Assembly (NCBI GenBank): GCA_002118135.1
Contig: BDIU01000200.1
Coordinates: forward strand, 1-64,000
Reading direction: 5' to 3'
Length of the DNA stretch: 64,000 nucleotides
DNA from: Trebouxia sp. TZW2008
Taxonomy: Eukaryota > Chlorophyta > Trebouxiophyceae > Trebouxiales > Trebouxiaceae
Position numbers and translations under genes: made by a program. Shown here one piece after another: positions 9,653-63,339 of the stretch (its first letter is position 1; each line of letters opens with the position of its first letter). Under the pieces are notes generated by a model. That model saw only the letters and a program-made list of their open reading frames with translations, made no database searches and was not told the DNA's origin.

Positions 9653-12600
9653 ATGACTTCAGTAGCATCACACGCTACTGCCGCACCTCAGCAAGTCAAG
9701 GGCGGCCTTCACAACGTTCAGTCTCAGCAGAGCATACTGGACGTCGCCAAGATCGAGGAGGGTGTGCAAGACATCGACCTGCAGGCTAAGGCACCAGGTC
9801 AGATACACGTTCAAAGCCTCTCAGGCAGCTGCGCTGTTGTTGGCTGCTGGACTTAAAGCTCTGCTGCAGGTCCTGCTGCAGCATATCTTGTACTTACTGG
9901 TGCTTGTGTCTGCAGCTTTCCAAGCCCTGTTTGAGAAGCTGACCAGCGGCGCCTCCACTGCTGACCGCAAGGCAGCTGCTCAGGATGTTGTTGAGCAGAT
10001 GAAGGCCGGAGGAGCTGCATCTTTTGCGGTAAGTCTGTTGTCTGCTATTGTTGCTGGTCCTAGTACTGTACAGGCTTTGCACCTTCAGCTATTTTCTGAC
10101 GTAACCTGACCTGACCGCGACCAATTTTGCTTTGTCTTGTTACAGGCTGGCGGCATTGTTGACAAGGTCAAGGTCGCTGCAGAGGACAAGAGTGCTGAGG
10201 GTGGCCTATTTGCTGTCAAGGCTCTGGCTGAGACAAAGGATGCCACTGCTGAGGCATATGTGGTTGCTATGCTGCCCATTGTCCTGGACAAGTACGCTGA
10301 CAAGGTATGCACATTGTCTTCATCACAATGACTATGCAGAGCGTTCAGAGGCATTGGCTTTCACAAGCACTTCACTCCCTTGTCTAAGCTGCGCTTAGCT
10401 TGTTAAGTCCACGTCCTTTTTATTGTGAAGTGCCTTGTCTAGGTCAGTTATGCACTTTATCTGTCCAGTTCCTAGTTGCCAAAAATTTTGCTTGAAGCTT
10501 TTTGCAGCATCAGCTTCAAGTGTTGACCTTGTTGTTTTCAACCGCATTACATCATAAGCTTATTACACCATCAACTGACATCATATGTCACAGTCTGGTA
10601 TTTGCTGACATTGTCATACTTCATTTTGCAGTCTAAGGCTGTGGCCACAGCTGCTGCTGAGGCAGCCACTGCCATCCTTGCCAACATGAACGGCAACGGT
10701 GTGCGCTTGGTGTTGCCAATGCTGTTTGAGGCCATGGGCCAGAAGCAGAAGTGGCAGACCAAGGTGGGCGCCCTGCAGCAGTTGGGTGCTCTGACCAAGA
10801 CTGCCCCTGCTCAGATGAAGCTGGCTCTTCCAGACATTGTCCCCGCTGTTGCTGGCTGCTTCGCTGATGCCAAGCCTCAAGTCAAGGTAAGCTGAATACA
10901 CTAGTCTGTATCTGTGCCCTGCACATTATGCATTGCTCTCATCATACATTACCTGCTGAAGCCGCTCCTTCCAGACGTTGTGCCTGCTCTTGCTGGCTGC
11001 TTTGCTGATGCTCAGCCTCAGGTCAAGGTGAGCTGCTATTGCAGTCTGATACTGTGCCACACACACCATGCACTGCTTTCATCATAAAACGCTGTCCAAG
11101 CCGCTTCTTTCAGACATTGTTCTGGTGGGACGGGATGCTTTGTTCATGCCAAACCCCTCAAGTCATGGCCAGCTTCCTGCAAACCTCACATGCATGTGTT
11201 GTTTGTCACTGTTTTTCAAAGTGCACTGTTTTCAGGGCAGTATATGCTCAGTTGCACTTGAGCTGTGCCTGAGGCTGTGCTGCTCTGAGTTCAGTGAATT
11301 TCGGACAATGGTGAGAAACAAGACATACACGCCATGACACTCGTCCACGCTGTGCCTAATGATTTTTTCAGCGCAAGGGGCTAAAGAGCTGTGGGATGTT
11401 ATTGGCCCTTGTCTGATTAAACCTGCACTTATTAGCTACGCTGCGTTGTTGATCTCTGCTTATCATTCACCTGTGGTACTCTGTAGCTGTGATGTTTCTT
11501 CCCTTTTCATGTCGCAAAAGTCTGACTGTTTTTTCCCTTGCAATTGCGCTTGATAGCTGTGACATACTGTCTCAAAGCTAATGCTCTTGTTTCTGTCCTG
11601 TGCAGACTGCTGCCATCAAGACCATGAACCAGGCCTGTGCAGCTGTGGGCAACCGCGACATTGAGAAGTTTGTGCCAGCCCTCATCACCGCCATGGCTAA
11701 CCCCACGGAGGTGCCAGAGACAGTGCACAAGTTGTCAGCCACCACCTTTGTGCAAGCTGTGGAGGCTCCCGCTCTGTCTATCATGGTGCCTCTGCTTGTC
11801 AGGGGCCTGCGTGAGAGGCAGACTGCCATCAAGCGCAAGTCTGCTGTCATCATTGACAACATGTCCAAGCTGGTGGACAACCCAGCTGATGCTGCTGTCT
11901 TCCTGCCCAGGTTGGGGCCTGCAATGCTTTCTTGTGTGCAGTCAGTTTGCTCCTTGATGTTGTCATGACACTGAATGTTGCAGAGTCAGTGTGCGTGACA
12001 ACCTATTCAGTGTCTGCTTCATGTGCTGTTCAGAGTGGCATTTGTCAGGGTCATTCTTGAGTCCAATGCTGCTGCTTGGTCGTTCATGGCCTTCACCACT
12101 TGTTGTTGTCAAAGCAATGTAGCAGTCTTGCCGCTGTTTGGCCTTGGGCTGCTGCATCTCTGGACTTAGCCAATGTTGTTATTTCAGATGCTTTCCTTTG
12201 CTGATGTTTGTTGAGCAATTATGCTTGCAATGGGCGCTGACGCTTGTGTGCAGGCTGCTGTCCAGTGATGAGGATGGTGCCAACAATTTGGCGTTTTAAG
12301 AGTGCTGCCTGGCAGCAGGCAAAGCTTCACAACATCAAGGGGCCTAACTGCTTGCTTCCATATGCTTGTTTTGCAAAGTGATGCCAAGAACATTGCTGAC
12401 CCGGAGTGATGTGCAGTAGCAGCCAAGGCTCCTTGAAACAAGGCAACCTTAACAACATCAAGGCAACCTCAATGTCTAATACCAAACTGCTTGTTATGCA
12501 GGCTGTTGCCAGGTGTTGAGGACGTTGCCAAGAATGTGGCTGACCCAGAGTGCCGTTCAGTAGCAGCCAAGGCTCATGCCACACTGCTCAAGGTTGGTGC

Positions 12601-15600
12601 TGATGGCAAGGTCACCGGCATTGTCGCCAACGAGGCTGAGGTGCTAGCAGTCCTGGGCTCTGCCATTGCTAAGGCTAATGGCCAGGTTGGCGAGGTGGTC
12701 GTGAAGTACATTGCCAGCATGATGTGCGGCCTCATCAATGCCAGCCAGTACAAGGATGACCAGTGGATCCAGGTGAGAAGCTATGGTGCCTCTTGCGTTG
12801 AGATCGTCCTGCTGCAGTTCTTTCAGAGGCCTAGCGCTGGGGTGCATCAACAGCTTTTGTTGTGAGCACCGGTATCATGTTTGTACACTGTGCCATCAAC
12901 AACCACTGATTTGCATTGCCACTCATTTGCATTGCAGTTGCACATGCAGTTGCAGACTTTGCTGTTATATTGACAGTCACAGTTGCTTGTGAGAAGGCTG
13001 TTGGCACACTTTTTCAGCTACATTCGTTGCATTCCTAGTTGTTTGTGCTTGATGTTCACTTACTTCCCTACATTCTTTTTTCACATGTGATGTTGTTGTT
13101 CTGGCTGTCGCTCAAGTGCTCCTGTTGCTGTGCAGCTGGTGGTGCCATACTTGTCAGCCACTGTGTCCAAGCAGAAGGCTGAGGTGGTTGCCTTGGATGT
13201 GCTAGCACACTTCTTCAAGGAGATGCAGGAGAAGACCCGTGTGGTTGAGGAGGAAGAGGAGGGCGAGGACCTGTGTGACTGCGAGTTCAGCCTGGCATAC
13301 GGTACAGACCTTGCTCATCACTGGTCATGGCTACTTGTTTGTTGCCAATTCGCTTGTTGTGTTACTTGCCCTTTGGCTTGACATGATCATTCAGTGTCTT
13401 GTCTTCTGCTTGTTGTGCTGCTTGCCCACTGGCTTGAGCAACCAGTGTCTGATGTTCAGTGGTTGGCTGTCACAAAAGCAGCCATCTGTGTAGTTGGCCT
13501 TGCAATCACAATGCCTTATCGTGGACGCTGATTGCCACCACAAGACTTGACAGTTGCAGGACAGTTGCTCTGTCCTTTGCTGCTGCTCTTGGCTTTTATA
13601 CTCAAGTAGTTTCACCTTGTGCAGGTGGCAAGATCCTGCTCAACAACGCTCGCCTGCACCTCAAGCGTGGCAAGCGTTACGGTCTGTGCGGCCCCAACGG
13701 CGCAGGCAAGTCGACTCTCATGAGGTCCATCGCCAACGGCCAGCTGGAGGGCTTCCCACCCAAGGATCAGCTGCGTACAGTGTACGTCGAGCACGACATC
13801 GATGCCTCCGAGAGCAACGTGCCCGTCGTGGAGTACGTCTACTCTGACCCCATCCTGCAGGACGCAGCCCACCCTGCTCACAACCAGGTGGAGGAGGTTC
13901 TTAGCAGCGTGGGTTTCACTGAGACCATGCAGCAGGCTCCTGTCAGCTCCCTGTCTGGTGGCTGGAAGATGAAGTTGGCTCTAGGTAATTTGTTGACTTC
14001 TGACTGCAGTGCAACTTCATCTGCACTCATCATGTCATGACTTCCATTGGTGACTGTGCCAGCAACAGTCATTCTGCAATTGCATTTCTGTGCATTGCAT
14101 TGCCAATTCACAGTGATGTTTCAAAATGCCATTGCCATACCCACATGTGTTGATCAGCATTTACAGAGAGACTTCTGAGCAATCAGGGCCACTTATGTCA
14201 GAAGGTGTCTGACAATTGTCAAGACAAAGTTGAGCATCAGACACAGCTTAACACTCAACATTGTTTGTGCTTGCTGCAGCCAATGCCATGTTGATGAAGC
14301 CTGACATCATGTTGCTGGATCAGCTTATTGATCACTTGGCTTTCATTGATGGAGCACATCCTGCTAAGTTCCCCTAGTTGCGCTAATTCCAGTTTGTGTT
14401 TCTTGCAGCCCGTGCCATGTTGATGAAGGCTGACATCATGTTGCTGGACGAGCCCACCAACCATTTGGACGTCAAGAATGTTGCGTGGCTGGAGGAGTAC
14501 CTCACTCACTTGCCAGATGTGACCAGCATGGTGGTGTCCCATGACAGTGGCTTCCTGGACAATGTGTGCACTGGCATCATCCACTACGAGAACCGCAAGC
14601 TCAAGCACTACAAGGTACCCATGTCTTGTAATCAGTTTTGTGGTCTCTGGCTATTGTGTGCTTAGGCATCTTACATGATGAGAAGAGTCAAGCTTCTGCA
14701 CTGCTCAGTGTGGCATGCTGAACTGCCCATGTGTTGTCAGTGAGCTATGTTTGTGTGCCTGTGAGAGCTCCTTTGCAATCAATCTCTTTCTTATTTTATA
14801 GACATCATGCCAGTGTCTTCCTTGCACTGTTGACATTCAGCACTGGACATATTGTCCACTGGACTTTATTGTGCTGTCACTATGCCGCTGAATCCTCATC
14901 AAGCTTTGCTTGCAATGTAGGGCAACCTGTCAGAGTTTGTGAAGCGGGTGCCAGAGGCCCAAGCCTACTACAACTTGGAAGCTGCCTCCACCAAGTTTGC
15001 TTTCCCTGAGCCTGGCTTCCTGGAGGGCATCAAGACCAAGGACAAGGCTATCCTCAAGATGGCTAGAGTTGGCTTCACGTGAGTTTTGCCTTGGCACTCT
15101 ATGCCCGTTTCAAATGTCAAGCTACATCTATGTTGCCTGCACGCCTTGTCTTGATTTGCATGCATATGCCAAGAATGCTCAGGTTGATTTCATGCCTGGT
15201 CTTGTTATGGCCCTGGTTTGTGCGGTGAATGATGCTGTATCATGCTGCGTCATCACAGTCATGTGTAGGCAGCTGGCATTGATGTAGACCTTGGATGGGG
15301 TTGATGGTGCATCAGCTTGACTCAGCTGCAGTATCCATCCCTGCTGCAGTTGAAGGTGTTTGCACCTGCCTATATACAGCTGTCTCGCCTCTGCCTCATC
15401 TATGTCTGCTGTTGTAACCAGTTTACTTAAGATGTTCATGTAGCTGATCTCATGCAGCAACAGCTTCTGCAATGTTCTGGCTTTCAGCATACCATCTGTA
15501 TGTTGCAAGTCTGCAGCTACTGATACCCTGTATTGCCACTTGCAGCTACCCCAACACAACCCGCAAGATCATTGAGAACGTCAGCATTGCTGTAACCCTC

Positions 15601-19161: not shown

Positions 19162-20681
19162 TCAGTAATCCATCTTGTTACCTTCCCAGTCAAGGTACTG
19201 TCCGTTTTGGTCCTTAGTCAACCCAAAGATGACCTTGTGCTGGCTTGCAATACTGCCTGGGGGCTTGAGGGGTGGGGAACCCCCTAGATGTGGCCCAGCA
19301 AGTTTTCCCATATCTGTCTCAACCCATCCAGGATGCAGTGCAATGAAAGTGAAACCCTCGTCCTTCAAATCATTTGCCAAGACCGCCGTCTCTGCAGTGC
19401 ATATCAGATTTGTTGGGTGCATGATAACATCATGGGCTGCTACTGAAGCAAAATGGTGACATTTTGCTACACTGTGTAGTACAGGAGCAGTTGTTGTACA
19501 GCAAACTAACGGCCCTTGCGAAGGAAGGGTTGCATGCGCTGTGCAGTACTGCAGTGCATTTGACAAAGCTTATGCATGCTGGTGGCACAGCTTTGCTGCT
19601 GTGGTTTATGAGCACAGCGTCCTCGAGAGAGCATGTATTGAGCATTACTAGAGGGGATTTTGCAAGTGCTGAGTACACTCACACGCGCTGATGGCAGCCT
19701 TGCTGCTAGCTGGGTCAGCACAACGTCCTTGAGAAGAAAGTGTTGCATGCGTTGTGTAGCAAGCATTGTATAGCACTGCAGTGGATTTTGAAAAAGCTGA
19801 CGCATGTTGATGGCAGCCTTGCTGCTACTAAGGTCAACACAAGCTCCTCGAGAACCAAGTGTTGCATGCACTGTGTAGCATGCATACTGATATATTGCAG
19901 TGGATTTGCCAAGGTTTGAGAAAGCTTACGCATGTTGATGGCAGCCTTGCTGCTGTTGTAAGGCAGCATGAGGCCCTTGAAGCCTCCAGCAGCATTGCCA
20001 GAGATAGAGCCACAAATAGAGCTGGTGTTGACCACCACTTTCGTGGACTTTTTTTGTAGCTGAGGCAGGAAGTGCTTGGTGACCAGGAACGGGCCAACCA
20101 CATTGACATCCAGCACTTGCTTGTAGTCCTCGCCCGTACTGCAGGGTAGCAATCCAACTGGTGACTTTTGCACTCTTGCACAGACTTGCTTTGAGGACAT
20201 GCACCAAATTATCGGTAGAAGCACCGTAGCGTGCTTGTCAAGAAGCATCAAAGCCAGTAGGTCACTACTTACGCCTCGATGCCGCGCGAGATGGGCTCTT
20301 GCATGCCAGCGTTGTTGAGGATCAGATCAACCCCATCGGGGTACTGCTGTTGCACTTGCCTGGCCGCTGCCTGCACGCGTGGAGGTAAATGTACAGCAGA
20401 GCTTACGAAGCAGCCAAGCAAAGTTGCGAGACGACTTGAGCGACGCGTGCCTCGATGCTCGCTTCATCGCCGTTGTCCAGCTTTACAATCGCGAGTCTGT
20501 CGTGATACTGCTTTGCAAGATCTTGCAAGTCATCTGCCTTCTCTGGCTGACGAGCAGTGGCGATGACCTTCACCTTGCTCTTCTCTAGAAACTGCTTAAC
20601 ATGCTCTAATCCAAGGCCTCTGTTGCCACCAGTCACAATGAAGACTGAAGAGTCAGTGTTTGGGACGACGGTGGGAGCCAT
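19162..20681 (-). CDS. Short-chain dehydrogenase/reductase (SDR), 4 exons
   Basis: This is a classical SDR oxidoreductase with a Rossmann fold; the substrate is unknown. Exons in gene order: 20681-20436, 20370-20273, 20138-19930, 19391-19162, giving about 260 aa, normal for the family. The cofactor loop TGGNRGLG is at residues 17-24 and NNAG at 100-103. The catalytic set is NTSS (Ser154/155) and YNSSK (Tyr175, Lys179). LHPGWVETDMG follows as in the C-factor/sniffer-like group. Joins 2-3 and 3-4 are exact GT-AG junctions. Join 1-2 is uncertain: a good GTAAGC donor at 20406 breaks the frame, whereas the frame-keeping donor at 20435 reads GTCGTC. It is divergently placed to ISCA1, sharing about 850 bp upstream. 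Intron 3 carries copies of the exon 3 end. Confidence 0.9.
19565..19929 (-). repeat. Three copies of the SDR exon 3 end with 5' splice region
   Basis: On the minus strand the exon 3 end (AGCAAGGCTGCCATCA plus following intron bases) recurs with plus-strand positions near 19803, 19688 and 19575 after the true one at 19930, spacing about 115-125 bp. Each copy also keeps part of the following intron. GTAAGC has decayed (for example to GTCAGC). Confidence 0.85.
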
Positions 20682-22382: not shown

Positions 22383-22489
22383 GCTTTGCCAATGTCAGCT
22401 TCATGCACACCTCAGCAGCCAGCAAGTCAGAAACTGAAGCATTGCTACAAGTGCGCAGTTCATGGAGCTGAGACCAAGCTGGAACAGTC

Positions 22490-29743: not shown

Positions 29744-29921
29744 TACAGTGATTTCTCTTTATACCGACTGCTTTGGCTACCAAGCAAGTTGTCCTTACAT
29801 CAAATTGTCCTTGTTCAGAGGGACCACTGCAGTCAGAATGCAGTGATTAGTTACCAATGGCATCGTCCTTACATCCAGGTTATCCTTACATTGCGTGTCC
29901 TAACAGGAAGAGATCACTGTA
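29744..29921. mobile_element. MITE copy A, 178 bp
   Basis: Ends TACAGTGA and TCACTGTA form a terminal inverted repeat. Inside are several GTCCTTACAT motifs, in the opposite orientation to the other copies' TAAGGACA. It lies just past the GT61 stop codon. Confidence 0.8.
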
Positions 29922-30269
29922 CCCTAATGTGTTGCAATGCAATCAGCTGCATCTTTGCACCTTGTTTGCTCTTTGTGTTTGCTTAGCTTGATTTGTCCTT
30001 TGGAAACTTGCATGTTGATGTCATGACGCACAGCTTTTAACAAAACTTTTCAGCATGACAGACGGACTTGAGAACTCGTTCTCATTTCTGGATTGGTGAT
30101 GGCACAATGACTGCCTGCAGGCACACTGTGGAACGCTGCCAATAAAAAGACAAGCAAGACAGATACAGAACAGGTTGTGGCATAATGATGATCTGGACCG
30201 ATGCCAATTCTCCCATTTTACTTGCTTATTGTCAGTGTTTTAAGATATCTTCTAGCATTCCTTGGCTGA

Positions 30270-30689
30270 CTATATGAAGCAACTCTTTGGGCCGCAACAG
30301 ACAAACATATCATGTGCAGGCAACAAAATTTCATGTTGAAGCCAGATTTGATGCAGTCGCGCATGCTCCATGCGCTCCCCTACGCCTATCGCTGAGGCCG
30401 TTTTTCCTGACCCGACTTGATGAAATAACAACGGTCCGCGGTTCAAGGAAGACTCCCATAGGAATTCGCGAATTGTTTTCTGATACTTGGTGTAGGTGAA
30501 GTTTGATTTGGGTTTGATGAGGAGATAAACTTCCTTTGTCCCAATCACCTTTTTTTTTGCTTTTCCATTGTCGTCCAAGCACGGCTCAGATTGGGCGTCA
30601 GGATGATCAAGGCAATCATGTGCCAACTTCTTGTTGAATTGTTGTACACAAGATTTGTCATAAATGTCAAGCGATTCGTCTTGACTCAT
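30270..30689 (-). pseudogene. NCLDV D6/D11-like helicase/ATPase, N-terminal fragment
   Basis: This is a fragment of a giant-virus SNF2/DEAD-type ATPase. It begins with ATG at 30689 and runs 139 codons. The recognisable part is FTYTKYQKTIREFL followed by LLFHQVGSGKTASAIGVGE, the Q-like region and Walker A typical of NCLDV D6R/D11L-type transcription-associated ATPases. The match fades right after motif I, and no Walker B or C-terminal domain follows. No introns are seen, unlike all neighbouring host genes. Upstream sequence (30690-30820) is AT-rich. It is best read as a truncated endogenous copy of an algal giant-virus gene. Confidence 0.7.
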
Positions 30690-40447: not shown

Positions 40448-41228
40448 ATGAACGCTCAACTAAGTGCACAATTGCACTGCGGCCGCGTCAACATCGGGCA
40501 TGTTCACTGCCGGGCTGCGCAGCGTGTTGTTGCGCGATCTGCACCGACACGCTATTGCAAGCTTTCGGAAAGGTCCCATACCCCTCTCTTCGGCAATGCT
40601 GCAGCACTCAAGATTGCGCCGGCATGTCAAAGGCATCCGAGACCCTCCAGGAAGGCTTCTGTACAGACAAGCGCTATGTTCAACTTCTTCCGTGGAGACG
40701 CAAGCGAGGACACTCGCAAGAAGTACAAGGCGCAAGTCGATGCAATCAACAAGCTGGAGCCAGCCATGCAGGAGCTGTCAGATCAGGAGCTATCAGCTAA
40801 GACGGTTGAATTAAAGCAGAAGGCACAACAACAGTCACTCGATGACTTACTGGTGGAAGCCTTTGCGGTTAGTCACCACATTTTCATGTTGCAGCATGCA
40901 TGCACATCCACCACATGATACCGCACAGACCCACTGCAGGTCCTGTGGCTGTTTCCTTTTGAAAAGTCATGCAACTTCACCTGCAAGCCTTCAAAGGACG
41001 AAAGATGATGCCTGCTGTGTTTGATGATGCATTGCTGATTATGCTTAGGTGGTGCTTGAGGCATCAAAGAACACCATGATGCTGCTGCTGCTGCTGCTGA
41101 TGATGAGCGCCTTGCTTGACAAAGCACTGCCGCCCGTTTTCAGGTGGTGCACGAGGCGTCAAAGCGCGTCCTTGGAATGCGCCCTTCTGATGCATCATGC
41201 AACAAAGCCTGTACAACAAGCTGCCGCG

Positions 41229-41282
<54 letters not shown>

Positions 41283-53200: not shown

Positions 53201-56200
53201 CTGGGGCTGTCAAGTTATTTGTTCAGAGGGACATGAGTCACGGCGTATTGACAACCAGCTTAGAGATCGTTCTGGCGGGTATGTGGGTCCCCACCATTCT
53301 TCTTCCTCTGCCTTTGGGGATCCAACAGCAGAAGTACAGTAAGGCGTGAGTCATCGCACAAGTCACGGCGCACAATCAACTCATGAGGATTTTCTGGCAA
53401 GTATTTATGCATTGACTTCTCTTCTTCTTCCTCATCTTCTGTCGTCTGGCCTTGATGTTGTCTCCTACACAAAGGCAATGCATCAAAAGATTCTAGATGG
53501 CAACTGGGGCTGTCAATTTATTTGTTCAGAGGGACATGAGTCACGGCGTATTGACAACCAGCTTATTTGTCGTTCTGGCAGGTATAGTGTCTCCTCTTTG
53601 TAAGGACACTTGATGTAAGGACATTCTTGAAGTAAGGACAATGCAATCAGGAACCATTGACTGCATTCTGACTGCAGTGGTTCCTCTGAGTAAGGACAAA
53701 TTGATGTTAGGACAATTTTTTGGTAATCAAAGCAGTCGTGATAACAAGAAGTCACTGTATGTGGGTCACTACCATTCTTTTTCCTCTGCCTGTGGGGTAC
53801 AATAGCGCCCAGCAACACAGTGCCAGAAGTTCAATAAGGCACAAGTCACAGGGTACTGACAACCAGCTCAGAGGCCGTTGTGGCAGGTATGTGGGTCCCC
53901 ACCAATTTTTCTCCTCTGGCCGTTCGGGTCGTCCTTCTACCTTTGCCTGTGAGGGTCCAATAGCACCAAGCATCATGGTACCAGAAGTGCAGTGAGGCAT
54001 GAGTCACAGCATGAGTCACAGCATGAGTCACGGCATGAGTCACGGCATGAGTCACGGCGTATTGACAACAAGCTGAGAGGGCGTTCTGGCAGGTATGTGG
54101 TCCACCACCATTCTTCTTCTCTGCCTGTGGGTCTCCAAAAGCGCCCAGCATCGTAGTACCAGAAGTGCAGCGAGGCATCAGTCATGGCATGAGTCACAGC
54201 ATGAGTCACAGCATACTGGCAAACCAACACAAAAGCCGTTCTGGCAGGTACGTATGCTCTGACTGAGTTCTCCCTTCTGTTGCCTGAGGTCAGTGCACCC
54301 TTTAGCAAGTTTTTGGCGGATGATATGGAGAAATTTGACCCTCAAGGGTTTCCGCAAGGTTTACCAGGAAAGGAAACGAATTGGACCTATAAAATGGTAA
54401 AGATTTGGATTCAAAAGATGAAAAACACAGTATATGGCTATAGAAAAAGCAATCACCCAAAGAAAAGTAAAGAACCCTCAGCAATGTTGCTGTGATTAGC
54501 TGCAGGCAAATTGATCCTGGCAGCACTCGCTATTTCTTGTCACTAGCAGATATCTCGCTCCGCGTCTTGTTGTTCTGACTCCAAATTGGTGTTGGCACAA
54601 GTATTTTTGGCTCAATATAGTTGCTTTTATTGGCTGCAGGCAAGGTGATCCCGGTAGCACTCGCTATTTCTTGTCACTAGAAGACAGCTTGTTCCGCGTC
54701 TTTGGGGGCGAGCGCATTCAGAACCTGATGACAACCCTAGGCGTGGGTGACCTACCCATTGAAAGCAAAATTCTCACGCGCTCTCTTGACGAAGCACAGC
54801 GCAAGGTAGGCGCAACAGTAGTAATGATGATGATGATGATGAGGAGAATAGAATATTCGCCCATGTCAGCGCATGTGCTAGCTGTGTGTAGCCCAAGTCC
54901 TATCTTGTCAGGCTGGCTTGTTCTGAGCATCAGGCTCAGGACGGTGCATGTTCAACTGTTCAGAAGCAGTTGGGCACCCGTGTCAGCGCATGTGCTAGGT
55001 GTGTGTAGCCCAAGCCCTAACTTGCCAGGCTGGCTTGTTTTGAGCATCCCGGTCAGGATGGTGGATGTTCAACTGTTGAAAAGCAGCTTGAGCATGCAAG
55101 CCCAAGCTCGGCTCAGAAAGCAGCAAGTGTCTGCACTGAAGCTCTTGATATTATCTTCTTTAAGGCAACTGACAGATTGAAGCGTATATACAATTGTGGT
55201 GAAGCGCTGTTTGAAATATGAGCACAAATGGATTGACTTGAACTGACTCAATGGCAAGGCAGACTGAACTTCTGAACTTAGTCATCTTAACCAAGGTGGC
55301 ATGTGCTGCAGGTGGAGTCGTACTACTTTGACCTTCGGAAGCGGCTGTTTGAGTACGATCAAGTCATGAACACCCAGCGTGACAAGGTATGCTGCCGCCC
55401 AGACTCTTCTTCTTCCTCCCATCCTTTCCTCCTCTTTCCTCTGCTTACTTCAATATATGTTGCAGAAAGTGTATTAGACGCATTCAGCCTGACTGTTCAG
55501 GTTCGATCAAGTCATGAGCACCCAGCGTGTTAAGGTATGCTGCCTTCTCATGTCTTCGCATCTGCCATACAGATGGGAGCATCTCTTTGTGCTCGCTGCT
55601 ATCTGGGCGTCTGACATTGCAGGCTATATGTGACTAAGCCACCAACACTCAGTGTGCCATTGTCCATACCTAATAATATAATTACATATTCCAGCATATA
55701 CTGCTAGGTGTGTGTGGCACAAGTCCTATCTCGCCAGGCAGGCTTGTCGTGAGCGTCGCGATATGACCGCCTGATGTTCAACTGTTGAAAGTCAGACAAA
55801 AAAATGTCATTCCAGATATCCCTTGGGCGACCTGGAGGATTTGATCCCTTGACTTGACCAAACAACATGACCCTAAGCAACCTAGTGTCTAGCATCCTGC
55901 AGACATGTCCATACCTGACCATTGTTTACTTGTGCTGGAAAACATAACACCTAGCTGCTTGTGCTGAACATCTGGCTGCCTGCCATATGATAATAGTAGC
56001 ACTCACAACAACAATAGTTGGTTACATTTTCCAGCACATGTGCTAGGTGTGTGTGGCATATGCTGCATGCACGAAGTACAGAATGCAGTTGCACGGTCTC
56101 CACTCACTGCGTCAGGATGTGATGTTGAGTCACATGGGCGCCACTCACATGTTGCGTCTGTTGTCCCACCGTCAGACGGACAGATGCCACATGCGGATCA

Positions 56201-59200
56201 GTCACATTGCTGGGGTAGTACAGGCCAAAACAGTCAGACTAGCAAAACAGAAGCGACGGCCACAGCTGTTGCGCTTGTACCCGCATTACCATGTGTGTAC
56301 AGCAAGCCTAGCAAACACAAGGAAAGCATCACTCAACACGAATAATTTTGTGCAACCTGGAATGTTCTGGCGCGCTGTCTGCATTGATGCTGCTGTCTGT
56401 CACTCTGTGAGTTTTGTATTGTTTTCTGTCAAGTGCCTTAGTAACAGCTTGCATGTAATGCTTACTCTTGAGAAATTATACTAATTTGACCGATTTGTAT
56501 ATCAAAGGTTTGGAATATAGGAAGTAGTAATGTATACCCTGTGTGTCACACAATGACAGTGCTGGTCAAGTTTGTCAAGTGTTTGACTAACTTCCGCACA
56601 TGTGAAAGCCAGCTACCTATCACATGTGTGCTGGTCAATCAATCGCTGGACAATGCATTGGCGCTGTCATAGTGCACTCAAGGCTCTTGACACTTTGCAA
56701 AGTCTTAGCTGCACATCTGATCATCGTCTTCCTAGGTTTGATAGTCCGCCCAGAGCAACAGCGTGCTCCTTGTGGTTCAGACTGTGACAGCGCTGGTTCG
56801 GTTTGTTAAGTGTTTGAATACCTTCACATGTGAAAGGCAGCTACCTATCATATGTGTGTAGGTCAATCAAACGCTGCGCAATGCATCGGCGCTGTCACAG
56901 TGCCCTCAAGGCAGCTGACTCGTCTAGAGTCTTGAATGCATAGTCTTGCCTCCATGAGTCCAGTAGTCAGCCCAGATAGAGTGCATACACCTTGTGTTTC
57001 AGACTGTGACAGCGCTGGTCAGGTTGGCGAGTGTTTGACGGGCTTGCACTCATGTGCCAGGTCTCTGGACTGTCAGCTACCTAGCATATGGGTGTAACTT
57101 CGTCAAATACTAGGCAACACAACAGCACTGTCATAGTGCTCTCAAGGTAGCTTGCATTCCCAAAGTGTTAGCTATACCCCTGACCATCTCCTTGTTAAGT
57201 TCACCAGTCAGCTTGAAGAAAGAAGATATACCCTGTGTTGCAGACTGTGACAGGAGTTGTCAGATTGACAAATTTTTGACTACCTTCCACTCATGTGCAA
57301 TGTCTCTACTCTTTCAGCTACCTAGCATATGATGTGTAAGTTTGTCAAGTACTTACAGTGTAACAGTGCTGTCGTAGTGCTCTCAAGGCAGCTTGCACTT
57401 CTGAAGTCTTAGCTGCTCACCTAACTAGTCTCGTCTTCAGTCCGACAGTCAGCTTGAAGCAAGAGCATACAACTTGTGTTGCTGATCATGACAGGACTCG
57501 TCAATCTGGCAAGTGTTTGACTTGCTGCTGCCCATCCGCAAGGTCTCAAAGCTGCCAACAACGCTGCCCAAGTGACATATGAGCGGTGGCAGATCAAACT
57601 CATGTCCTGTTCAACGCTGTAACGCTCTCAAGGCAGCTCTCACTCCTTTCATCTCATAGGCTGAATCGCAGCTGTGCCATTGTAGTATTATGCAGTCGCG
57701 CATCAAAATTCTGCTTACATGGGTTTGGTCAATTATCAAAGGGCATCAAGAGAGGCTGAGTGCATGAGCGCATGTTTGCAGGTCTATGGTGAAAGAAGAA
57801 GAGCGCTGCAAGCGTCAGATCTCTCAACCCAGATGGTGGAGTATGCCGAAAAGACTGTTGACGACATTATCGAGGTAGGTTATCATCTTTGTCATATTCC
57901 ATATGATGTGCATTCAGGTGTTAGGGTTTTTGTGTTTAGGGTTAGCACCTGCAGGCATTGATCATACCTCATAATTGTTGACGACATTATCGAGATGGGC
58001 TTTGAACATCATCACACTTCTGATGATTAGTTTGTTTGTCCAATAACAACCCAGAGAATGCGTGTCCCGACTCTCGTGACAGCATTTGTGAACCTTGCAA
58101 ATGCTCCCTTTCAAGAATGGCATATGCTGACTGCATATAATCATCATGAAGCGTGAGTGCTCCTGCTGTAGGCAGCGAGTAGAATGCCTCCATCAGGATC
58201 ATGACACACCTGTGGTTTGCATGCTTTTGTCCTGTCTGCAAACTCAACATGAGCAATGCATGAGCTAACTCATGTTTTGCAATCAAATGGCTCTGAAGTA
58301 AGTATACCAAATGAGAGGCCATTACAAGCAATGGCCAACAAGATGCAGCAGTACTGTCCAAGCCTGATGGACCTCAAACACCTCTCATGACTTATTGACA
58401 CTGTCAACAATCACTTTCTGGTGTGAATTGCTCTTGTGTTGTGCAGGCAACATTGCTCCTGAATCCCCCCTGCTGAGTGGCAACTGGAAATGCTGGCTGG
58501 AATGCAGCAATACTGTCCGATGCTCACAGACCTCAACCACCTCTCATGACTTCCTAGCGCTGTGAATCTTCAGTCATATGTCAGAAAAAAAGAATGTGGC
58601 AGCGTTTGCAGGCAAACATTGCTCCTGAAGCTTCCCCTGCTGAATGGCAACTGGGAATGCTGGCCAACAAGATGCAGCAGTACTGTCCAAGTCTTACAGA
58701 CCTCAGACACCTCTCCTGACTTCTTAACACTGTCAACAATCAGTTTCTGGTGTGAACCGCTCTCCTGTTGTGCAGGCAAACATTGCTCCCAAAGCTCCCC
58801 CTGCTGAATGGCCCTTAGAAGCGCTGGCCAACAGCATGCAGCAGTACTGTCCAATGCTAACGGACCCCAAGGCCTTTCATAACTTCTTAACACTGTTGAC
58901 AGTCAGTTTCTTGTGTGAAGCTGCTGTCCTGTTGTGCAGGCAAACATTGCTCCCAAAGCTCCCCCTGCTGAATGGCCCCTAGAAGCGCTGGCCAACATCA
59001 TGCAGCAGTATTGTGCAATGCTAACAGACCTCAAACACCTCTCATAACTTTCTTAGCACTGCTGATAATCAGATTTTTTGTATGAATTGCTCTCCTGTTG
59101 CACAGGCAAACATTGCTCCTGAAGCTCCCCCCGCTGAATGGCGACTAGAGATGCTGGCTGGCAAGATGCAGCAGTACTGTCCACGCCTGACAGACCTCAA

Positions 59201-62200
59201 TGGTGAAGTGCTGCGACAGCAGTCTGATGGTGATTTCGAACAGCTCAGGGACTACATGAGGCGTAGGGCTGTAGAAGCCTACTGGCAGAAGGTAGCCCTA
59301 CTGCCCCAGCATCATTGACTCATGTAGCAGTGTCAATGATAATGATCTTCATGAAAATCATCATGATGTCATTATTGCAGTAGTTGCAGTTCAAACAGTA
59401 CGTGAGGGGCAGGGCTGTTGAGGCCTACTGGCAGAAGGTAGCCCTACTGCCCCAGCACCATTGACTATGCTAGGGATGAATTGGTAATTTTGATAGTGCT
59501 TATGGCGATGATGACAGTCATGATGATAGTAGTGACAACGGTGACGATGCTAACAATCGTTGTTGATGTTGGTCATATTTGCAGCTCAAGGACTAGCAGA
59601 GGCGCAGGGCTGTGGATCCTACTGGCAGAAGGTAGCTCTTGCTATGCTAAAATCAGTCATGACACTTCTCGGAACAGTCATCACATGACAACTGCATATT
59701 GTTGAGCGTGAAGCTGCCGCACCCTACCTCTGGTTACCAAAAATGCCCCCCTTGGAGCTCTCATTGAATGCCTAGACCGAAGCAAGCAGCCAAGACGTCT
59801 TACCTACTTACAGTTTGATCACAGGTCAGGATGTTCTATCTCGCAGAAGGTAGCCATGGCGTATCAGTATCATTGCATGCTTTGAGAGCATGTGGGCTGC
59901 AGTGTTGAGTCGTATGAGCTGTCTATCATTGATCGGAGCACATGCCCTCAGGATTGAGACTGACAGGTGGTTAGTTCCCACCCCACCTAAAGAGTCACGC
60001 ATTTGCTGTCGTTGTGCCATGCAAGCTGTTGAGGGTGAGCAACACTTTCTGTTTGATTGCCCATTTTATAGTGTCATCAGAGGTCAACACTTTTCTTTAT
60101 TTGGTTCAGCCTTTCATCAGCGGGACATTCGCCTGTTCTGTGAGGCAGACACTGATCAGCTGCCTTTGGTTGCCAGACACATTCACCTGTGCTTTCAAGC
60201 CAGGAAGTCCGAGGAGTCACATCTGGTTCCCTACCCCGGACTGTAAGTGCTATTGATTGATTGATTGATTGATCATTGAAGTGCTGGAATAGCAGGCAGG
60301 GTATGGCTGGCTGCGGGGCACTTCAAACCAACACTGACTCCATGTGACCATATCCCTTCATTGAGTACTGAATTGCATGAGCTGTCTATCATTGATCATC
60401 AGAGTACTGAAGGAGCAGGCTGGGTATGACTAATTGCGCAGCACTTCAAACCAACGACCTTGTGAATCAGGTCATGCTGCGGTTCAAGTTAGTGATATAT
60501 GCACACAAGTGGTGGAAGCAAACACTGTGGAGGCTGGACTGATGCGCACTGACAGGCCAGTCACACAGTAGCTTAACAACATTGGTGTTGCGTGCTGACA
60601 GAAGAGGCAAAGGAGTGCTGACTTCTGTATGGTAAACATAGTATCACAAAGAGTGTGTGCACACACAGGTGGAGGGAAGTGAACATTGTGGAGGTACATT
60701 CTCAAATTGTGCGCTTACGGGCCACTCACAGCACTGGAATAACTATGCATGCTGTGATTTGGGTGCTGAAGGCATTAGCGTGGGGATTACTGATGTTGCG
60801 TGAAGCTAAACCTGAAAAAAAGCACTGATACAGCCTGTGCCCTGAATGCGGATCTTGTGTGTACAGGTGGAGGAAGTAAACAATGTGGAGGCAGGACTGA
60901 TGCAGCACGCACAGCGCTTCTTCGTGCTCACACAGACGGACAACTTGTGGAAGGAGCACCTGCAAGCCATCAAATTCTTGCAACAGGTCGGCCCAGCTGT
61001 TACATGATGTCTTGCATGAAGCCTGCATTGATGTCCTACTCTTGATCAAGGGTACATGGACCTTTTGATCAAGGGTACATGAACCTTTGAGTGAATACTG
61101 CACATCAGCATTGCACACTGACAACCTGTGGAAGGAGCACCTGCAAGCCATCAGGTTTTTGCAACAGGTCAGCCCAGCTGTTACATGATGTCTTGCATGA
61201 AGCCTGCATTGTTGTCCTACTCTTGATCAAGGGTGCACGGGGCCTTTTAGTGAATACTGCACATCAGCATTGCAGACAAACAATTTGTGAAAGGAGCACC
61301 TGCAAGCCATCAGGGCTCTTGCAACAGGTCAGCTTACATTTTACGTCATGCGTAACAGACCCTAAGACCTGAAGCCTGATGCACAGTAAAGCAAATGCAA
61401 TTGGAAGCACTTTTCCTTTGATAGTTGTGTTGAGATAACACAGTCAGTTGGTAGGAACAGTTTGATAGCCTGCGGCGTGCCGCCAGCTGAGTATGAGTAT
61501 TGAATGATGATGCATGGGTGATGGTTTACAACAGCTGCAATAGTAGCGATGAGGAAATGAATTCAGTAGTAAGACCGTGCGGCGTTACACACAGGCAGCC
61601 TGCCTGATCCAATGACTCTGCATCATGGCTGGCGTTCATGCCAGCTTTGTTCTAGCCTTACATTTTGTATCTATGATTAAGTCTGCCTGTGCAGCCTTTG
61701 AACACATTAGCATTCACCTTGAATAATCAAGTGTGTATATATGTGTGTCTGCGTGTAGGCTGTGGACTCGAGGGCTTACGCCCAAATAGAGCAAACACAT
61801 GTGATCAAGTCTATCTATACACCATTTCAACCTATCTTTCAGTTGACTCTGCATGACTGAGTCCGTATGTCTGTGTGTAGGCTGTGGGGTTGAGGGGTTA
61901 TGCCCAGAGGGACCCCCTGACAGAGTACAAGCTGGAGGGGTACAACCTCTTTCTGGAAATGATGGCCAATATACGCCGTAACACCATCTATAACATCTAC
62001 GTATTTAGCGTAGATCAGGTATGCTTTGCTGCAGCAGTGATGCTGTCTCTCATTGCGCTTGCGTACATCAATATACGCTGTAACACCATCTACAACATCT
62101 ATGTCTTTAGTGTAGATCAGGTATGCTTTGCTGCACTGATGCTGGTTGCACTTGCAAACATCAGTATACGCCGTGACACCATCTGCAACATCTATGTCTT

Positions 62201-63339
62201 TCGTGTAGATCAGGTATGCTTTGCTGCAGCAGTGATGCTGTCTCTGCTTGCGCTTGCAAATATCAATATACGCCATAACACCATCTACGTATTCTGCATA
62301 GATCAGGTTTGCTTTGCTGCAGCAGTGATGCTGTCTCTGGTCGTGCTTGCAAACATCAAAATACAACGTAACACCATACACAACGTGTACGTATTCAGCG
62401 TAGATCAGGTACACTTTGCTGCACTGATGGTGTCTCTGGTTGCGCTTGCAAACGTCAATATACGCCGTAACACTTCCTACAACATCTACGTATTCTGCAC
62501 AGATCAAATATGCTTTGCTGCAGCAGTGATGCTGTCTCTGCTTGCGCAAACATCAAAGCAGCTTGAGTCACCTGTACTGACCACGCGCATGCAGCAAGGT
62601 GACTGGGGTTGTGGATTTAGATCGCTGTTGATTACATGGCACAATTGGTGTTGTCCGCGTGGCACAATTGCTGTGATTCGCATAACACAATCGCTGTTGT
62701 TTGCATGGCACAATCGCTGTTATTTGTATAATACAATCGCTGCAGAGGCTGCGCTCAGATCCTGTAAGTTACCTTTGTATCTGTCCTGGTAGTACGCTTT
62801 GTATGTACCATTAATGTGTTGTTTTATGGAAGTGTCATGTGTGTGCTCTTGTCATGGGCTTTTTGCACAGAATGAGAATCTATCAAATCTGTCTAAGGTT
62901 TTTGCCTGGAGACTGTAGCCTCACAAAAAAATCCCCAGCAAAAAAAGAGATCAGGCAGTATTCGGCTGCCTTTTGAACACAACGATCATGATGAACATAA
63001 CATACTATGTGAAAATGAAATCCAAAAGATGGTAACGTGGTTCACTTCTGTTGAACTCGTCTGTTTGATCTGCAGGCAGCACAGTCGCGGCAGCAGCAGT
63101 ATCTTCTACAACAACAACAACGTGAGCTGCAGAAATTGTCAGGACAGCAACAGAGGACCACTGCAAAGGATGCCATCAGCGATGTTGCAGCGGCAACCCC
63201 AGAGTCATCAAAGGACGCTATGATGAATGAAGCTGCATCAGATGCATCCAATGGCAACGGCGGTCCTCTAAACAATGGTTCGTCAAAACAAGGAAGCCGC
63301 AGCAAGACATCTAAGCAGAAGGTCAAGGCGAAGCGCTGA
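40448..63339 (+). CDS. SECA1: Chloroplast SecA (SecA1-type) preprotein translocase ATPase, 21 exons
   Basis: This is the motor that drives proteins into the thylakoid through SecY/E. Exons: 40448-40867, 41479-41652, 42790-42894, 43688-43780, 45082-45206, 45635-45758, 46879-47036, 48361-48451, 48899-49061, 49369-49502, 50118-50263, 51102-51276, 52162-52287, 52693-52829, 54640-54805, 55312-55386, 57782-57874, 59106-59291, 60867-60986, 61881-62018, 63076-63339. All introns are GT-AG and in frame; the product is 1,070 aa. Residues 1-76 look like a transit peptide, ending before MFNFFRG. Motifs in order: MRTGEGKTL near 176, [20 protein letters not shown] near 280, GMTGTAATE near 442, [14 protein letters not shown] near 558, and [17 protein letters not shown] plus QGDPGS near 707-727. 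The C-terminus is Gln/Ser/Lys-rich with no CxC zinc motif. Coding is 14% of the locus. Most introns carry copies of neighbouring exon edges. Confidence 0.96.
41045..41400 (+). repeat. Three copies of the SecA exon 2 start, with CTG tracts
   Basis: Copies of GGTGGTGCGTGAGGCRTCAA occur near 41049, 41143 and 41322 before the true exon at 41479. Units also contain trinucleotide tracts, the longest (GCT)n at about 41230-41274, plus a GAT tract near 41416-41441. Confidence 0.9.
41705..41800 (+). repeat. Copy of the SecA exon 2 end
   Basis: GAGATGAGAAAAGGGGAGGA onward mirrors the exon 2 stretch coding for [20 protein letters not shown]. The Walker A lysine codon context is lost. Confidence 0.85.
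42149..42310 (-). mobile_element. Non-LTR retrotransposon 3' fragment
   Basis: It shares GCTAGGTGTGTGTGGCACAA and the following about 150 bp with the better preserved fragment at 55704-55922, whose minus strand encodes the end of a reverse-transcriptase ORF. No intact frame remains. Confidence 0.65.
42430..42770 (+). repeat. Three copies of the SecA exon 3 start
   Basis: CAGGTGGTGACTGTGAATG plus variable lengths of the following exon occur near 42434, 42566 and 42681 before the true exon at 42790. Spacing is 109-132 bp. All keep an AG acceptor. Confidence 0.92.
43150..43495. repeat. Minisatellite, CCCATGCTGTG-type unit
   Basis: About 30 imperfect units of TGTGCCCATGC / TTTGCATGC lie inside SecA intron 3. 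Long Cys/Met-rich frames across it are repeat artefacts. Confidence 0.95.
43575..43650 (+). repeat. Copy of the SecA exon 4 start
   Basis: GGATGAAAGGCGTGCATTGC and following bases match the exon 4 start at 43690 ([14 protein letters not shown]). The copy is about 110 bp upstream. Confidence 0.88.
43810..43937. repeat. CACT tetranucleotide microsatellite
   Basis: Near-perfect CACT repeats with a few CCACT variants, in SecA intron 4. Confidence 0.97.
44020..44140 (-). mobile_element. Non-LTR retrotransposon 3' fragment
   Basis: It shares GTGCTAGGTGTGTGTGG plus AAGYCCTATCTTGTCAGG with the fragments at 42149, 54861 and 55704. Confidence 0.6.
44250..45070 (+). repeat. Six decoy copies of the SecA exon 5 acceptor and exon start
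   Basis: Copies of GACTGCAGCGTGATCAGGAC-like sequence lie near 44255, 44470, 44654, 44790, 44894 and 44953 before the true exon at 45082. Three extend far enough to encode [14 protein letters not shown] versions of the DEVD motif. The intervening parts (GTGTGCTGAAGGACTTGTA) are shared too. Confidence 0.92.
45282..45349. repeat. TTCG/TTCA microsatellite
   Basis: A run of GTTCGTTCG followed by ATTCATTCA in SecA intron 5. Confidence 0.95.
45355..45432. repeat. Dispersed repeat, copy 1
   Basis: GGCTCAGCAGGCCCATCTAG and AGCAATCAACTGTCTCCAG are shared with two copies at about 49863-49945 and 49990-50055. All three lie in SecA introns. The nature of the element is unknown. Confidence 0.7.
46160..46790 (+). 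repeat. Four copies of the SecA exon 7 start, with pyrimidine tract
   Basis: Copies near 46164, 46330, 46536 and 46699 precede the true exon at 46879. Each keeps the CTTCTTCTTCTG tract, an AG acceptor and about 90 bp of exon ([20 protein letters not shown]). One carries an in-frame TGA in the Trp codon position. Confidence 0.93.
47180..47485 (+). repeat. Two copies of the SecA exon 7 end and donor
   Basis: Copies at about 47190-47245 and 47420-47480 repeat GAAGCCATCATTGTTGATGA and end in CAGAAGGTAC or CAGGAGGTAT after the true donor at 47037. Exon 7 is thus flanked by arrays on both sides. Confidence 0.88.
48790..48870. repeat. CTCG/CTCA microsatellite
   Basis: Imperfect CTCG and CTCA tetranucleotides in SecA intron 8, close to the exon 9 acceptor. 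Confidence 0.9.
49863..50060. repeat. Dispersed repeat, copies 2 and 3 in tandem
   Basis: Two units (from about 49863 and 49990) share GAGCAATCAACTGTC and a following GTC..GCTAT segment with 45355-45432. Confidence 0.7.
50325..50430 (+). repeat. Well-preserved copy of the SecA exon 11 end and donor
   Basis: About 90 bp repeat the exon stretch coding for [20 protein letters not shown] with two early substitutions and an intact AG|GTGTGG donor, 159 bp after the true donor. A shorter fragment lies near 50490. ACCCTAAGCCTAACCCTT-like telomeric bits sit between copies. Confidence 0.92.
50610..50700 (+). repeat. Copy of the SecA exon 12 start
   Basis: GAGCTGATGCGAAGGAAGTTGC repeats the LKLRELL coding start of exon 12. 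A better copy is at 50958-51040. Confidence 0.75.
50700..50845 (+). mobile_element. Non-LTR retrotransposon 3' end, plus orientation
   Basis: The plus strand encodes an RT-ORF tail ([20 protein letters not shown], then WW..TWATHT and stop) matching the minus-strand tail at 55704-55922. It is inserted between exon 12 copies. Confidence 0.7.
50950..51050 (+). repeat. Second copy of the SecA exon 12 start
   Basis: After TGTATAG, the sequence encodes [20 protein letters not shown], nearly the true exon start at 51102, then diverges. Confidence 0.92.
51610..51695 (+). repeat. Copy of the SecA exon 12 end and donor
   Basis: It encodes [16 protein letters not shown] followed by GTGAGC, like the true end at 51276. 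Confidence 0.92.
51722..51899. mobile_element. MITE copy B, 178 bp, near-perfect ends
   Basis: TACAGTAAACT at the left end and AGTTTACTGTA at the right are exact inverted repeats. Inside are TAAGGACA motifs shared with copies C and D and, in the opposite orientation, with copy A. Same length as copy A. Confidence 0.88.
51943..52095. mobile_element. MITE copy C, right end decayed
   Basis: It starts TACAGTGACTTCTCTTTG and ends near ACAACAAGAGTAGTCA. Internal TTGTCCTTACATCAAATT is shared with copy A. Confidence 0.75.
52350..52440 (+). repeat. Copy of the SecA exon 13 end and donor
   Basis: It encodes an [22 protein letters not shown] end followed by GTAGAA, 150 bp after the true end at 52287. 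Confidence 0.9.
52530..52585 (+). repeat. Copy of the SecA exon 14 start
   Basis: CTGTTTAG followed by GCCATGGAGAAAGAAGACAA repeats the true start at 52685-52710. The shared upstream part (TTGAGCTTGCCTGTTTAGG) is copied too. Confidence 0.9.
53583..53759. mobile_element. MITE copy D, inserted inside an exon 14 repeat unit
   Basis: It starts TATAGTGTCTCC and ends GTCACTGTA. The flanks GGCAGGTA and TATGTGGGTC match the uninterrupted GGTATGTGGGTC of the neighbouring repeat unit at about 53277, which shows insertion at TA with TA duplication. Confidence 0.88.
53997..54060. repeat. 14 bp tandem expansion inside an exon 14 copy
   Basis: GCATGAGTCACAGC/GG repeats five to six times. It is a local amplification of the codons for HES within the copied RHESRR segment. 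A shorter run occurs at about 54180-54215. Confidence 0.9.
54505..54570 (+). repeat. Copy of the SecA exon 15 start
   Basis: GCTGCAGGCAAATTGATCCTGG plus the CACTCGCTATTTCTTGTCAC stretch is nearly identical to the true exon at 54632-54680, about 132 bp downstream. Confidence 0.93.
54861..55080 (-). mobile_element. Two tandem non-LTR retrotransposon 3' fragments
   Basis: CAGCGCATGTGCTAGSTGTG plus AAGYCCTADCTTGYCAGGCT and GATGTTCAACTGTT recur at about 54865 and 54983. They match the fragment at 55704-55922. Confidence 0.7.
55495..55536 (+). repeat. Copy of the SecA exon 16 end and donor
   Basis: TTCGATCAAGTCATGAGCAC and then CAGCGTGTTAAG|GTATGC repeats the true exon 16 end at 55386. Confidence 0.92.
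55704..55922 (-). mobile_element. Non-LTR retrotransposon ORF end (reverse-transcriptase protein C-terminus)
   Basis: The minus strand encodes a 72-residue open end with [19 protein letters not shown] and [10 protein letters not shown], followed by a stop. This is the typical C-terminal pattern of LINE-type ORF2 proteins. It is truncated upstream and is the best copy of the family in this window. Confidence 0.8.
56560..57520. repeat. Tandem array, about 220-240 bp unit, in SecA intron 16
   Basis: Units start near 56560, 56785, 57003, 57246 and 57487 with CAGACTGTGACAGCGCTGGT-like sequence, then CAGCTACCTAKCATATG and CTCTCAAGGCAGCTT. The copies are diverged. No coding exon edge is recognised inside the unit. 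Confidence 0.85.
57921..57945. repeat. Interstitial telomere-like tract
   Basis: TTAGGGTTTTTGTGTTTAGG contains two TTTAGGG-like units in SecA intron 17. Confidence 0.5.
57968..57997 (+). repeat. Copy of the SecA exon 17 end
   Basis: TTGTTGACGACATTATCGAG repeats the exon end coding for TVDDIIE, but the donor GT is changed to AT. Confidence 0.9.
58310..59100 (+). repeat. Five decoy copies of the SecA exon 18 start, about 165 bp spacing
   Basis: Copies begin near 58285 (partial), 58448, 58612, 58778 and 58939 before the true exon at 59106. Spacing of the last five starts is 158-167 bp. Each shows GGCAAACATTGCTCC and CAGCAGTACTGTCCA, and most retain a GTGCAGG acceptor. Intervals include a CTCATGACTTCTTAACACTG stretch. 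Confidence 0.94.
59385..59645 (+). repeat. Copies of the SecA exon 18 end and donor
   Basis: Copies near 59399-59440 and 59583-59632 repeat AGGGCTGTTGAGGCCTACTG and CAGAAG|GTAG after the true end at 59291. A further stub (CAGAAGGTAGCC) lies near 59845. Confidence 0.9.
59881..60281 (+). mobile_element. Non-LTR retrotransposon 3' end with ATTG tail
   Basis: The plus strand encodes a 118-residue end with a zinc-finger-like [20 protein letters not shown] and CPFYSVIR, typical of the C-terminus of algal/plant LINE-type ORF2 proteins, then a stop at 60244-60246. It is followed by an (ATTG)n tail at about 60252-60275. Inserted in SecA intron 18. Confidence 0.82.
60505..60690 (+). repeat. Two copies of the SecA exon 19 start
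   Basis: Copies near 60509 and 60667 of GGTGGAGGAAGTAAACAATG-like sequence precede the true exon at 60867. The first also keeps GGCTGGACTGATGC. Confidence 0.85.
61115..61335 (+). repeat. Two copies of the SecA exon 19 end and donor
   Basis: GGAGCACCTGCAAGCCATCA with TTGCAACAGGTCAG recurs near 61131 and 61294, 160 and 340 bp after the true end at 60986. Confidence 0.93.
61755..61800 (+). repeat. Copy of the SecA exon 20 start
   Basis: CTGCGTGTAGGCTGTGG and the following GAGGGCTTACGCCCA repeat the true acceptor and start at 61871-61905. Confidence 0.9.
62019..62530 (+). repeat. Five in-frame copies of the SecA exon 20 end, open through the intron
   Basis: Copies of the exon end (codons for [17 protein letters not shown]) finish at 62120, 62213, 62306, 62408 and 62507 after the true end at 62018. 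Unit lengths are 102, 93, 93, 102 and 99, all multiples of three. The exon 20 frame stays open to a stop at 62790-62792. Between copies lies a hydrophobic peptide such as [17 protein letters not shown]. Donors degrade from GTATGC through GTTTGC and GTACAC to ATATGC. Confidence 0.95.

Follow-up and report, generated by a model that had tools for sequence, protein, structure and literature searches.

Nucleosome-sized tandem duplications are over-represented at exon borders and lengthen introns in a Trebouxia genome

Introns of the green alga Trebouxia sp. TZW2008 often carry tandem copies of their own exon edges. Each copy comprises the end of an exon, the adjoining splice site and some intron sequence, and the copies belong to a distinct, nucleosome-sized class of tandem repeats that straddles exon borders more often than random placement predicts, also when selection is allowed for. 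The copies decay at a near-neutral rate and add length to the introns that hold them. The reading we favor, at a probability of about one half, is that a tandem-duplication process acting at nucleosome scale, a selection filter and a hot spot at exon edges together explain these border arrays. Each copy has a conserved exon source to set it against, so that its neutral decay, age and direction become readable, and the arrays thus provide a datable record of intron growth within a single genome. Owing to their narrow size class and edge preference, one can test whether gene structure is tied to chromatin and break repair. With pairs of near-identical sites ~150 nt apart, the arrays also form a natural experiment on splice-site choice by the spliceosome.

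Border copies in the window and in other genes

The window, i.e., the whole stretch of DNA analyzed here, spans 64,000 nucleotides of contig BDIU01000200.1 and stems from an assembly of 68.5 Mb in 527 contigs with a G+C content of ~48%. Sections of two publications report Trebouxia assemblies of 63–74 Mb with 49.6–51.1% G+C (PMC12712428, PMC11523091). Full gene models within the window were built for eEF3 and SecA with a purpose-written spliced protein-to-DNA aligner, using proteins P0137 and P0121, respectively, as guides. The introns of both models are GT..AG. Over the exon searched, the eEF3 of the window is 90% identical to a full-length protein of 1070 residues from a 3.7-kb contig and 82% identical to its counterpart in Myrmecia bisecta; SecA shares 76% identity with P0121 in the searched part of exon 1.

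9653..17584, + strand: eEF3 gene model with 14 exons, spliced alignment to P0137 (1070/1070 residues)
40448..63336, + strand: plastid-type SecA gene model with 22 exons, 86% intron, spliced alignment to P0121 (residues 2–985 of 986); the start of exon 1 upstream of 40661 was set from the open frame

Two open frames on the minus strand, 30270–30716, which contains a GSGKT loop, and 31380–31763, lie apart from these models. Neither has a Pfam match, and no relative of 30270–30716 was found in the PDB or among viral contigs; the frames at 30–32 kb are possibly a decayed helicase-like gene.

Comparison of the window with itself placed 20 of 42 SecA exon borders (10 3' and 10 5' splice sites) and 2 of 26 eEF3 exon borders within local direct repeats whose other copies lie in the adjoining intron. 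The bit scores of these border repeats range from ~43 to 508, far above chance. An earlier note on this DNA, made from the sequence alone, had described border-spanning copies upstream of 3' splice sites (3'ss) and downstream of 5' splice sites (5'ss), and the self-comparison recovers this arrangement; the direction itself follows from geometry and so adds no extra evidence. A further array that the note had placed in an SDR gene was confirmed by eye. The arrays are listed below.

10816..11174, + strand: eEF3 exon 4 5'ss (exon end 10886), downstream copies, spacing 141
14263..14448, + strand: eEF3 exon 9 3'ss (14409), upstream copy, spacing 129
19689..19954, − strand: SDR exon tail and 5'ss, downstream copies, spacing ~119, read by eye
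41066..41527, + strand: SecA exon 2 3'ss, upstream copies
41568..41833, + strand: SecA exon 2 5'ss, downstream copy
42550..42849, + strand: SecA exon 3 3'ss, upstream copy, spacing 222
43576..43728, + strand: SecA exon 4 3'ss, upstream copy, spacing 99; outside the stricter count given below
44229..45155, + strand: SecA exon 5 3'ss, upstream copy array
46149..46966, + strand: SecA exon 7 3'ss, upstream copy array, unit 165
46980..47447, + strand: SecA exon 7 5'ss, downstream copy, unit 207
50156..50456, + strand: SecA exon 11 5'ss, downstream copy, unit 157
50943..51183, + strand: SecA exon 12 3'ss, upstream copy, unit 143
51207..51697, + strand: SecA exon 12 5'ss, sharp-ended downstream block, spacing 416; outside the stricter count
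52205..52452, + strand: SecA exon 13 5'ss, downstream copy, spacing 147; outside the stricter count
52510..52734, + strand: SecA exon 14 3'ss, upstream copy, spacing 156
52765..54257, + strand: SecA exon 14 5'ss, long downstream array, units 85 and 183
54486..54702, + strand: SecA exon 15 3'ss, upstream copy, spacing 134
55345..55544, + strand: SecA exon 16 5'ss, downstream copy, spacing 148; outside the stricter count
58317..59200, + strand: SecA exon 18 3'ss, upstream copy array, unit ~160
59241..59639, + strand: SecA exon 18 5'ss, two downstream copies
60933..61333, + strand: SecA exon 19 5'ss, downstream copies, unit 181
61743..61906, + strand: SecA exon 20 3'ss, upstream copy, spacing 122
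61967..62557, + strand: SecA exon 20 5'ss, downstream copy array, unit ~93–102
49882..50107, + strand: purely intronic tandem pair, unit 115, ending ~10 nt before a 3'ss
54860..55094, + strand: purely intronic tandem pair, unit 117, which illustrates the background class and also shows similarity to a dispersed repeat

The dispersed repeat just mentioned, ~90–185 bp long, occurs in both orientations in SecA introns (42136–42316, 43993–44116, 50736–50852 in reverse, 54860–55094 and 55689–55872). A second one of ~165–180 bp, with copies ~80% identical, is found in SecA introns at 51737–51901 and 53598–53761 and, in reverse, near 29.8 kb at 29744–29922.

An independent set of 21 gene regions (~240 kb) with HSP70, class I tRNA synthetase, CPSase, ClpB and FtsH genes was modelled using guide proteins of E. 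coli K-12. An intron was kept if its two flanking exons aligned well and followed one another without a gap in the protein, which yielded 205 introns (34 in the window, 171 elsewhere); 19 of these were shorter than 150 bp and were dropped, leaving 186 (31 in the window and 155 in 20 other genes). The sample leaves out all EF-Tu-family genes, the CPSase genes except one, the FtsH relatives except four genes, the HSP70 matches on contigs C69 and C429 and the synthetase matches on C312 and C252. Confident exons have a median length of ~155 bp (n = 266).

Under a stricter criterion, by which each of the two copies must include 15 nt of intron or more, a border copy is present in 14 of the 31 window introns (12/20 in SecA, 2/11 in eEF3) and in 35 of the 155 introns elsewhere. 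At least one was found in 14 of the 20 other genes and none in the remaining 6. The claim that nearly every intron holds such copies is thus too strong, while the proposed frequency of border duplication in unrelated genes is borne out beyond the window. These counts are lower bounds, since the stricter rule overlooks four SecA borders as well as matches whose real part falls wholly within an exon, of which there are 17 more, 8 of them ending no more than 5 nt from a border. In all, 51 families of local repeats of any kind lie in the window. Across the 186 introns we count 71 families: 51 straddle one border (28 at a 3'ss, 23 at a 5'ss) and hence represent local tandem duplications overlapping exon sequence, 2 straddle both borders and 18 are purely intronic. 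Given these 18, a restriction of the duplications to borders is not supported.

Protein matches alone reveal further cases. The HSP70 exon starting at residue 131 is present three times in succession on C150, as is the ClpB exon starting near residue 292 on C143, and an HSP70 exon tail is present twice on C165. Unlike HSP70, ClpB and FtsH, the Cpn60 family yielded only 2 doubtful overlapping pairs among 63 exon-level matches, and the DEAD family gave no clear copy among 40 exon-level matches (32 of 123 candidates scored).

Size class and structure of the duplicated units

Local direct repeats in the 304 kb of combined sequence, filtered for low complexity, form 166 families with a single peak of spacing. 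The spacing is 100–180 bp in 115 families, with a mode of 140–150 bp, and exceeds 300 bp in only 8. Local inverted repeats are almost absent from the same filtered sequence, with 2 matches within 3 kb. In simulations, self-BLAST recovered 59–60 of 60 planted duplications with units of 200–800 bp, 45 at 80 bp, 36 at 60 bp, 3 at 50 bp and none at 20, 30 or 40 bp. Since this method is blind to units below ~50 bp, short units were counted with TRF. Among 131 TRF arrays, 60 have units of 10–30 bp, 21 of 30–100 bp and 35 of 100–200 bp, so that tandem repeats in the 304 kb fall into two size classes, 10–30 and 100–200 bp, with a valley between them. It follows that the border arrays form part of a separate, nucleosome-sized class. 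The same size class extends beyond the modelled genes, where ~116 kb contain 37 families with a median of 146 bp.

The median ratio of repeat block to spacing is 0.65 at 3'ss, 0.93 at 5'ss and 0.45 for purely intronic families. Many copies are thus shorter than their spacing, i.e., the units are eroded or imperfectly tandem. In complete two-copy units, spacers are near 0 and no long microhomology was seen at the junctions by eye, though many other blocks are eroded. The absence of long junction homology in these pairs would fit an origin from staggered breaks, without proving it. Breakpoints within exons are roughly spread (Kolmogorov–Smirnov p = 0.07 for 51 families); a preference for exon centers is suggestive only (p = 0.07 over all families, 0.011 over the 26 complete units). 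Among confident exons longer than 70 bp, no whole-exon copy was found. Such copies occur solely at modelled exons of 30–70 bp in three genes (C52, C242 and C47b), which are perhaps model errors.

Edge preference and decay of the copies

Because a duplication inside an exon should be purged and one that spans a single border should be tolerated, a fair null places duplications at random over all tolerated starts. The 2 both-border families, low-complexity matches and matches below 42 bits were left out of the resulting rate ratios. Outside the window (155 introns), 33 of 45 families lie at a border and 12 are intronic, while the null predicts a border fraction of 0.447. The border-to-intronic rate ratio per admissible start is 3.40 (1.76–6.59, p = 9e-5). 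It amounts to 4.74 for the window alone, 3.67 for all data and 4.99 when introns of 500 bp or longer are taken, and the observed border fraction is 0.73–0.75 in the window and outside sets alike. With all data, the ratio ranges from 2.8 to 7.0 across score cut-offs and filters and from 3.4 to 4.0 when one gene at a time is left out. Some genes carried copies that were visible beforehand, and removing them biases the ratio low. Without the FtsH genes C328 and C193b, which were fetched after copies had been seen in protein matches, the outside ratio is 2.84 (1.40–5.75); without C150, C165, C143 and C193a in addition, it is 2.63 (1.14–6.10, p = 0.016), and after dropping C47b as well, 3.03 (1.17–7.81, p = 0.014).

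Simulations revealed no detection bias toward border pairs: the ratio of border to intronic detection was ~0.95, and 0.94 and 0.79 with heavier indels, for simulated blocks that are more complete than real ones (intronic block/spacing 0.67–0.92 versus 0.45 observed). The rate of unit centers is 1.4–1.75 per kb within 40 nt of a border, 0.15 per kb 80–160 nt inside and 0.42 per kb on average farther inside the intron, where single bins range from 0 to 0.99. A cruder control on introns of at least 700 bp gives a weaker contrast, in which a family of any kind spans 28 of 80 real borders versus 17–27 of 80 points placed 50–300 nt inside; those inner points are mostly spanned by border-array copies, and purely intronic families span 1–6 of 80. 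The purely intronic families also lean toward borders, with 10 of 18 lying within 100 nt where 6 are expected (p = 0.025). A comparison of border overlap with random placement had been proposed in the earlier note, and its outcome supports an over-representation of exon edges under a null that already allows for selection.

Decay was measured on 90 copies of 50 borders aligned with their sources, a sample that consists of copies alignable across the splice site and in which copies of one array are not independent. Mismatches between copy and source amount to 259/2032 (12.7%), 204/2039 (10.0%) and 450/2018 (22.3%) at codon positions 1, 2 and 3, respectively. Such a third-position excess would arise when copies drift at every site but their sources can change at third positions only. 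Of 41 copies, 31 retain the decoy GT (neutral prediction ~32), and of 49, 41 retain the decoy AG (~38). Splice cores mismatch at 49/363 (5'ss) and 16/189 (3'ss) cells, rates that do not differ from the 463/4071 for the first two codon positions (p = 0.21 and 0.25). Within the 3' core, AG alone mismatches in 5 of 95 cells versus 11.4% expected (p = 0.07), which hints at slight retention. In these 90 copies, neither codons nor splice cores show evident purifying selection, and there is no clear sign of active removal. Since the copies decay as neutral sequence does, they appear to be inert by-products which make introns longer, not functional decoys. Dozens of decoy splice sites had been anticipated; the sites do exist, and their near-neutral decay gives no hint that they are used.

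Arrays, with purely intronic ones and spacers included, occupy 16,944 of 104,381 intron bases (16%) and 6917 of 19,679 (35%) in SecA, in line with the earlier proposal that border duplication makes introns grow. The accompanying figure of 86% intron for SecA holds as well (3141 exonic bases in 22,889 bp). Nearest copies are typically ~15–20% divergent, and only 8 of 71 nearest duplicate pairs (186 introns, 22 genes) are at least 90% identical. This scarcity of young pairs could stem from an earlier burst, from identical copies being lost quickly or from assembly collapse.

Proposed mechanism and comparison with known systems

Under the favored reading, a tandem-duplication process with units mostly of 100–180 bp would be active throughout the algal genome. 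Exon-internal duplications would be eliminated by selection, whereas a duplication of a single edge would be harmless to the mRNA while the outer, original splice site stays in use, and would hence persist. The extra copy would then have become intron and decayed neutrally, sometimes after expanding to an array, leaving a longer intron. Beyond this filter, segments that straddle a border would arise or fix at ~2.6–3.7 times the rate of purely intronic segments. We infer that units may be born from staggered breaks or paired nicks followed by fill-in and end joining, or from an equivalent error at the scale of Okazaki fragments. The edge preference may stem from chromatin, possibly from nucleosomes placed on exons of ~155 bp. 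Splice-site choice bears on the persistence of such copies. Part of a study on a human reporter library describes that, of two consensus donors, mostly the first is used, while acceptors show no order preference (PMC6783452). As 3'ss families (28) are nonetheless about as frequent here as 5'ss families (23), the alga would need another acceptor selector; exon-proximal acceptor choice, for instance by exon definition, might serve.

A mutational process aimed at splice junctions is a tentative possibility: recurrent breaks or replication errors at exon edges would copy ~150 bp centered on the junction, at nucleosome scale, with chromatin or co-transcriptional splicing steering the duplication and introns growing inward from their edges. 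Random tandem duplication combined with purifying selection, without any edge preference and with exon-internal and whole-exon events purged, is unlikely. It accounts for the rough spread of exon-internal breakpoints and for the lack of whole-exon copies of confident exons above 70 bp, and its null already gives a border fraction of ~0.44; the observed 0.73–0.75 lies well above this value (p = 9e-5 outside the window), the excess persists in the strictest subsets (p = 0.016 and 0.014), and no detection bias emerged in simulations. Hardly more probable, and in our view doubtful, is that introns were short (~200–250 bp) when the duplications arose and later grew by other insertions, border events being the commonest tolerated class. 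Shorter introns raise the null border fraction, which reaches 0.568 for introns below 500 bp, and few duplicates are young. Yet array-bearing introns are the longer ones even after array growth is removed (median 488 versus 377.5), the rate ratio is 4.99 among introns of 500 bp or more, and purely intronic families are about as dense (18 in 58.8 kb of admissible starts) as families outside modelled genes (37 in 115.7 kb of bases), a rough comparison given that the denominators differ and the outside sequence includes unmodelled genes.

The remaining explanations are far less probable. Selection maintaining the copies as functional decoys or alternative exons is very improbable: many of them retain GT/AG and consensus, and the shortfall of AG mismatches (p = 0.07) hints the same way, but splice cores do not differ from codon positions 1 and 2, and the mismatch excess sits at third positions. 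An Introner-type or other transposable element is equally improbable. The same introns do contain dispersed repeats, and the intronic pair at 54860–55094 belongs to one, whereas every border array copies its own exon edge, and among the listed self-matches of the window no sequence is shared between different border arrays. An assembly artefact, finally, is scarcely credible. The assembly comprises 527 contigs, but an artefact should produce near-identical copies rather than ones ~15–20% apart, and border copies turn up on many contigs, in 14 of the 20 other genes.

Satellite monomers of nucleosome size have a repeat unit near 150–180 bp. The algal arrays resemble them in unit size and differ in that each array is short and private to one exon edge. 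In the literature searched, whose coverage does not extend to the nearest works (Gao and Lynch 2009, Hellsten 2011 and the rice study named below), we found no description of the border-copy pattern. The arrays share with Introners, as portrayed in part of PMC9860276, a repeated growth of introns over many genes; unlike with Introners, no shared mobile sequence was found among the border arrays of the window in the listed self-matches. Intron gain by tandem genomic duplication, in which a duplicated exonic AGGT creates a new intron, is described in a portion of PMC3443670. Both that system and the present one involve local, intragenic tandem duplication that doubles splice-like sites, but here an existing border is copied and an old intron lengthens: no new intron from a duplicated AGGT was seen, and the copies sit inside existing introns beside the real border. 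Comparable in proposed chemistry are small tandem duplications in human cells, which excerpts of PMC8355091 attribute to staggered breaks or opposing nicks with fill-in and end joining and rank as the commonest short (<100 bp) human insertions; a similar break-repair origin was proposed for rice insertions by Vaughn and Bennetzen (PMC7407515, in part). Like these, the algal duplications are small, tandem and proposed to arise by local break repair, and unlike the human duplications of <100 bp, they form a separate class of 100–200 bp with a preference for exon edges.
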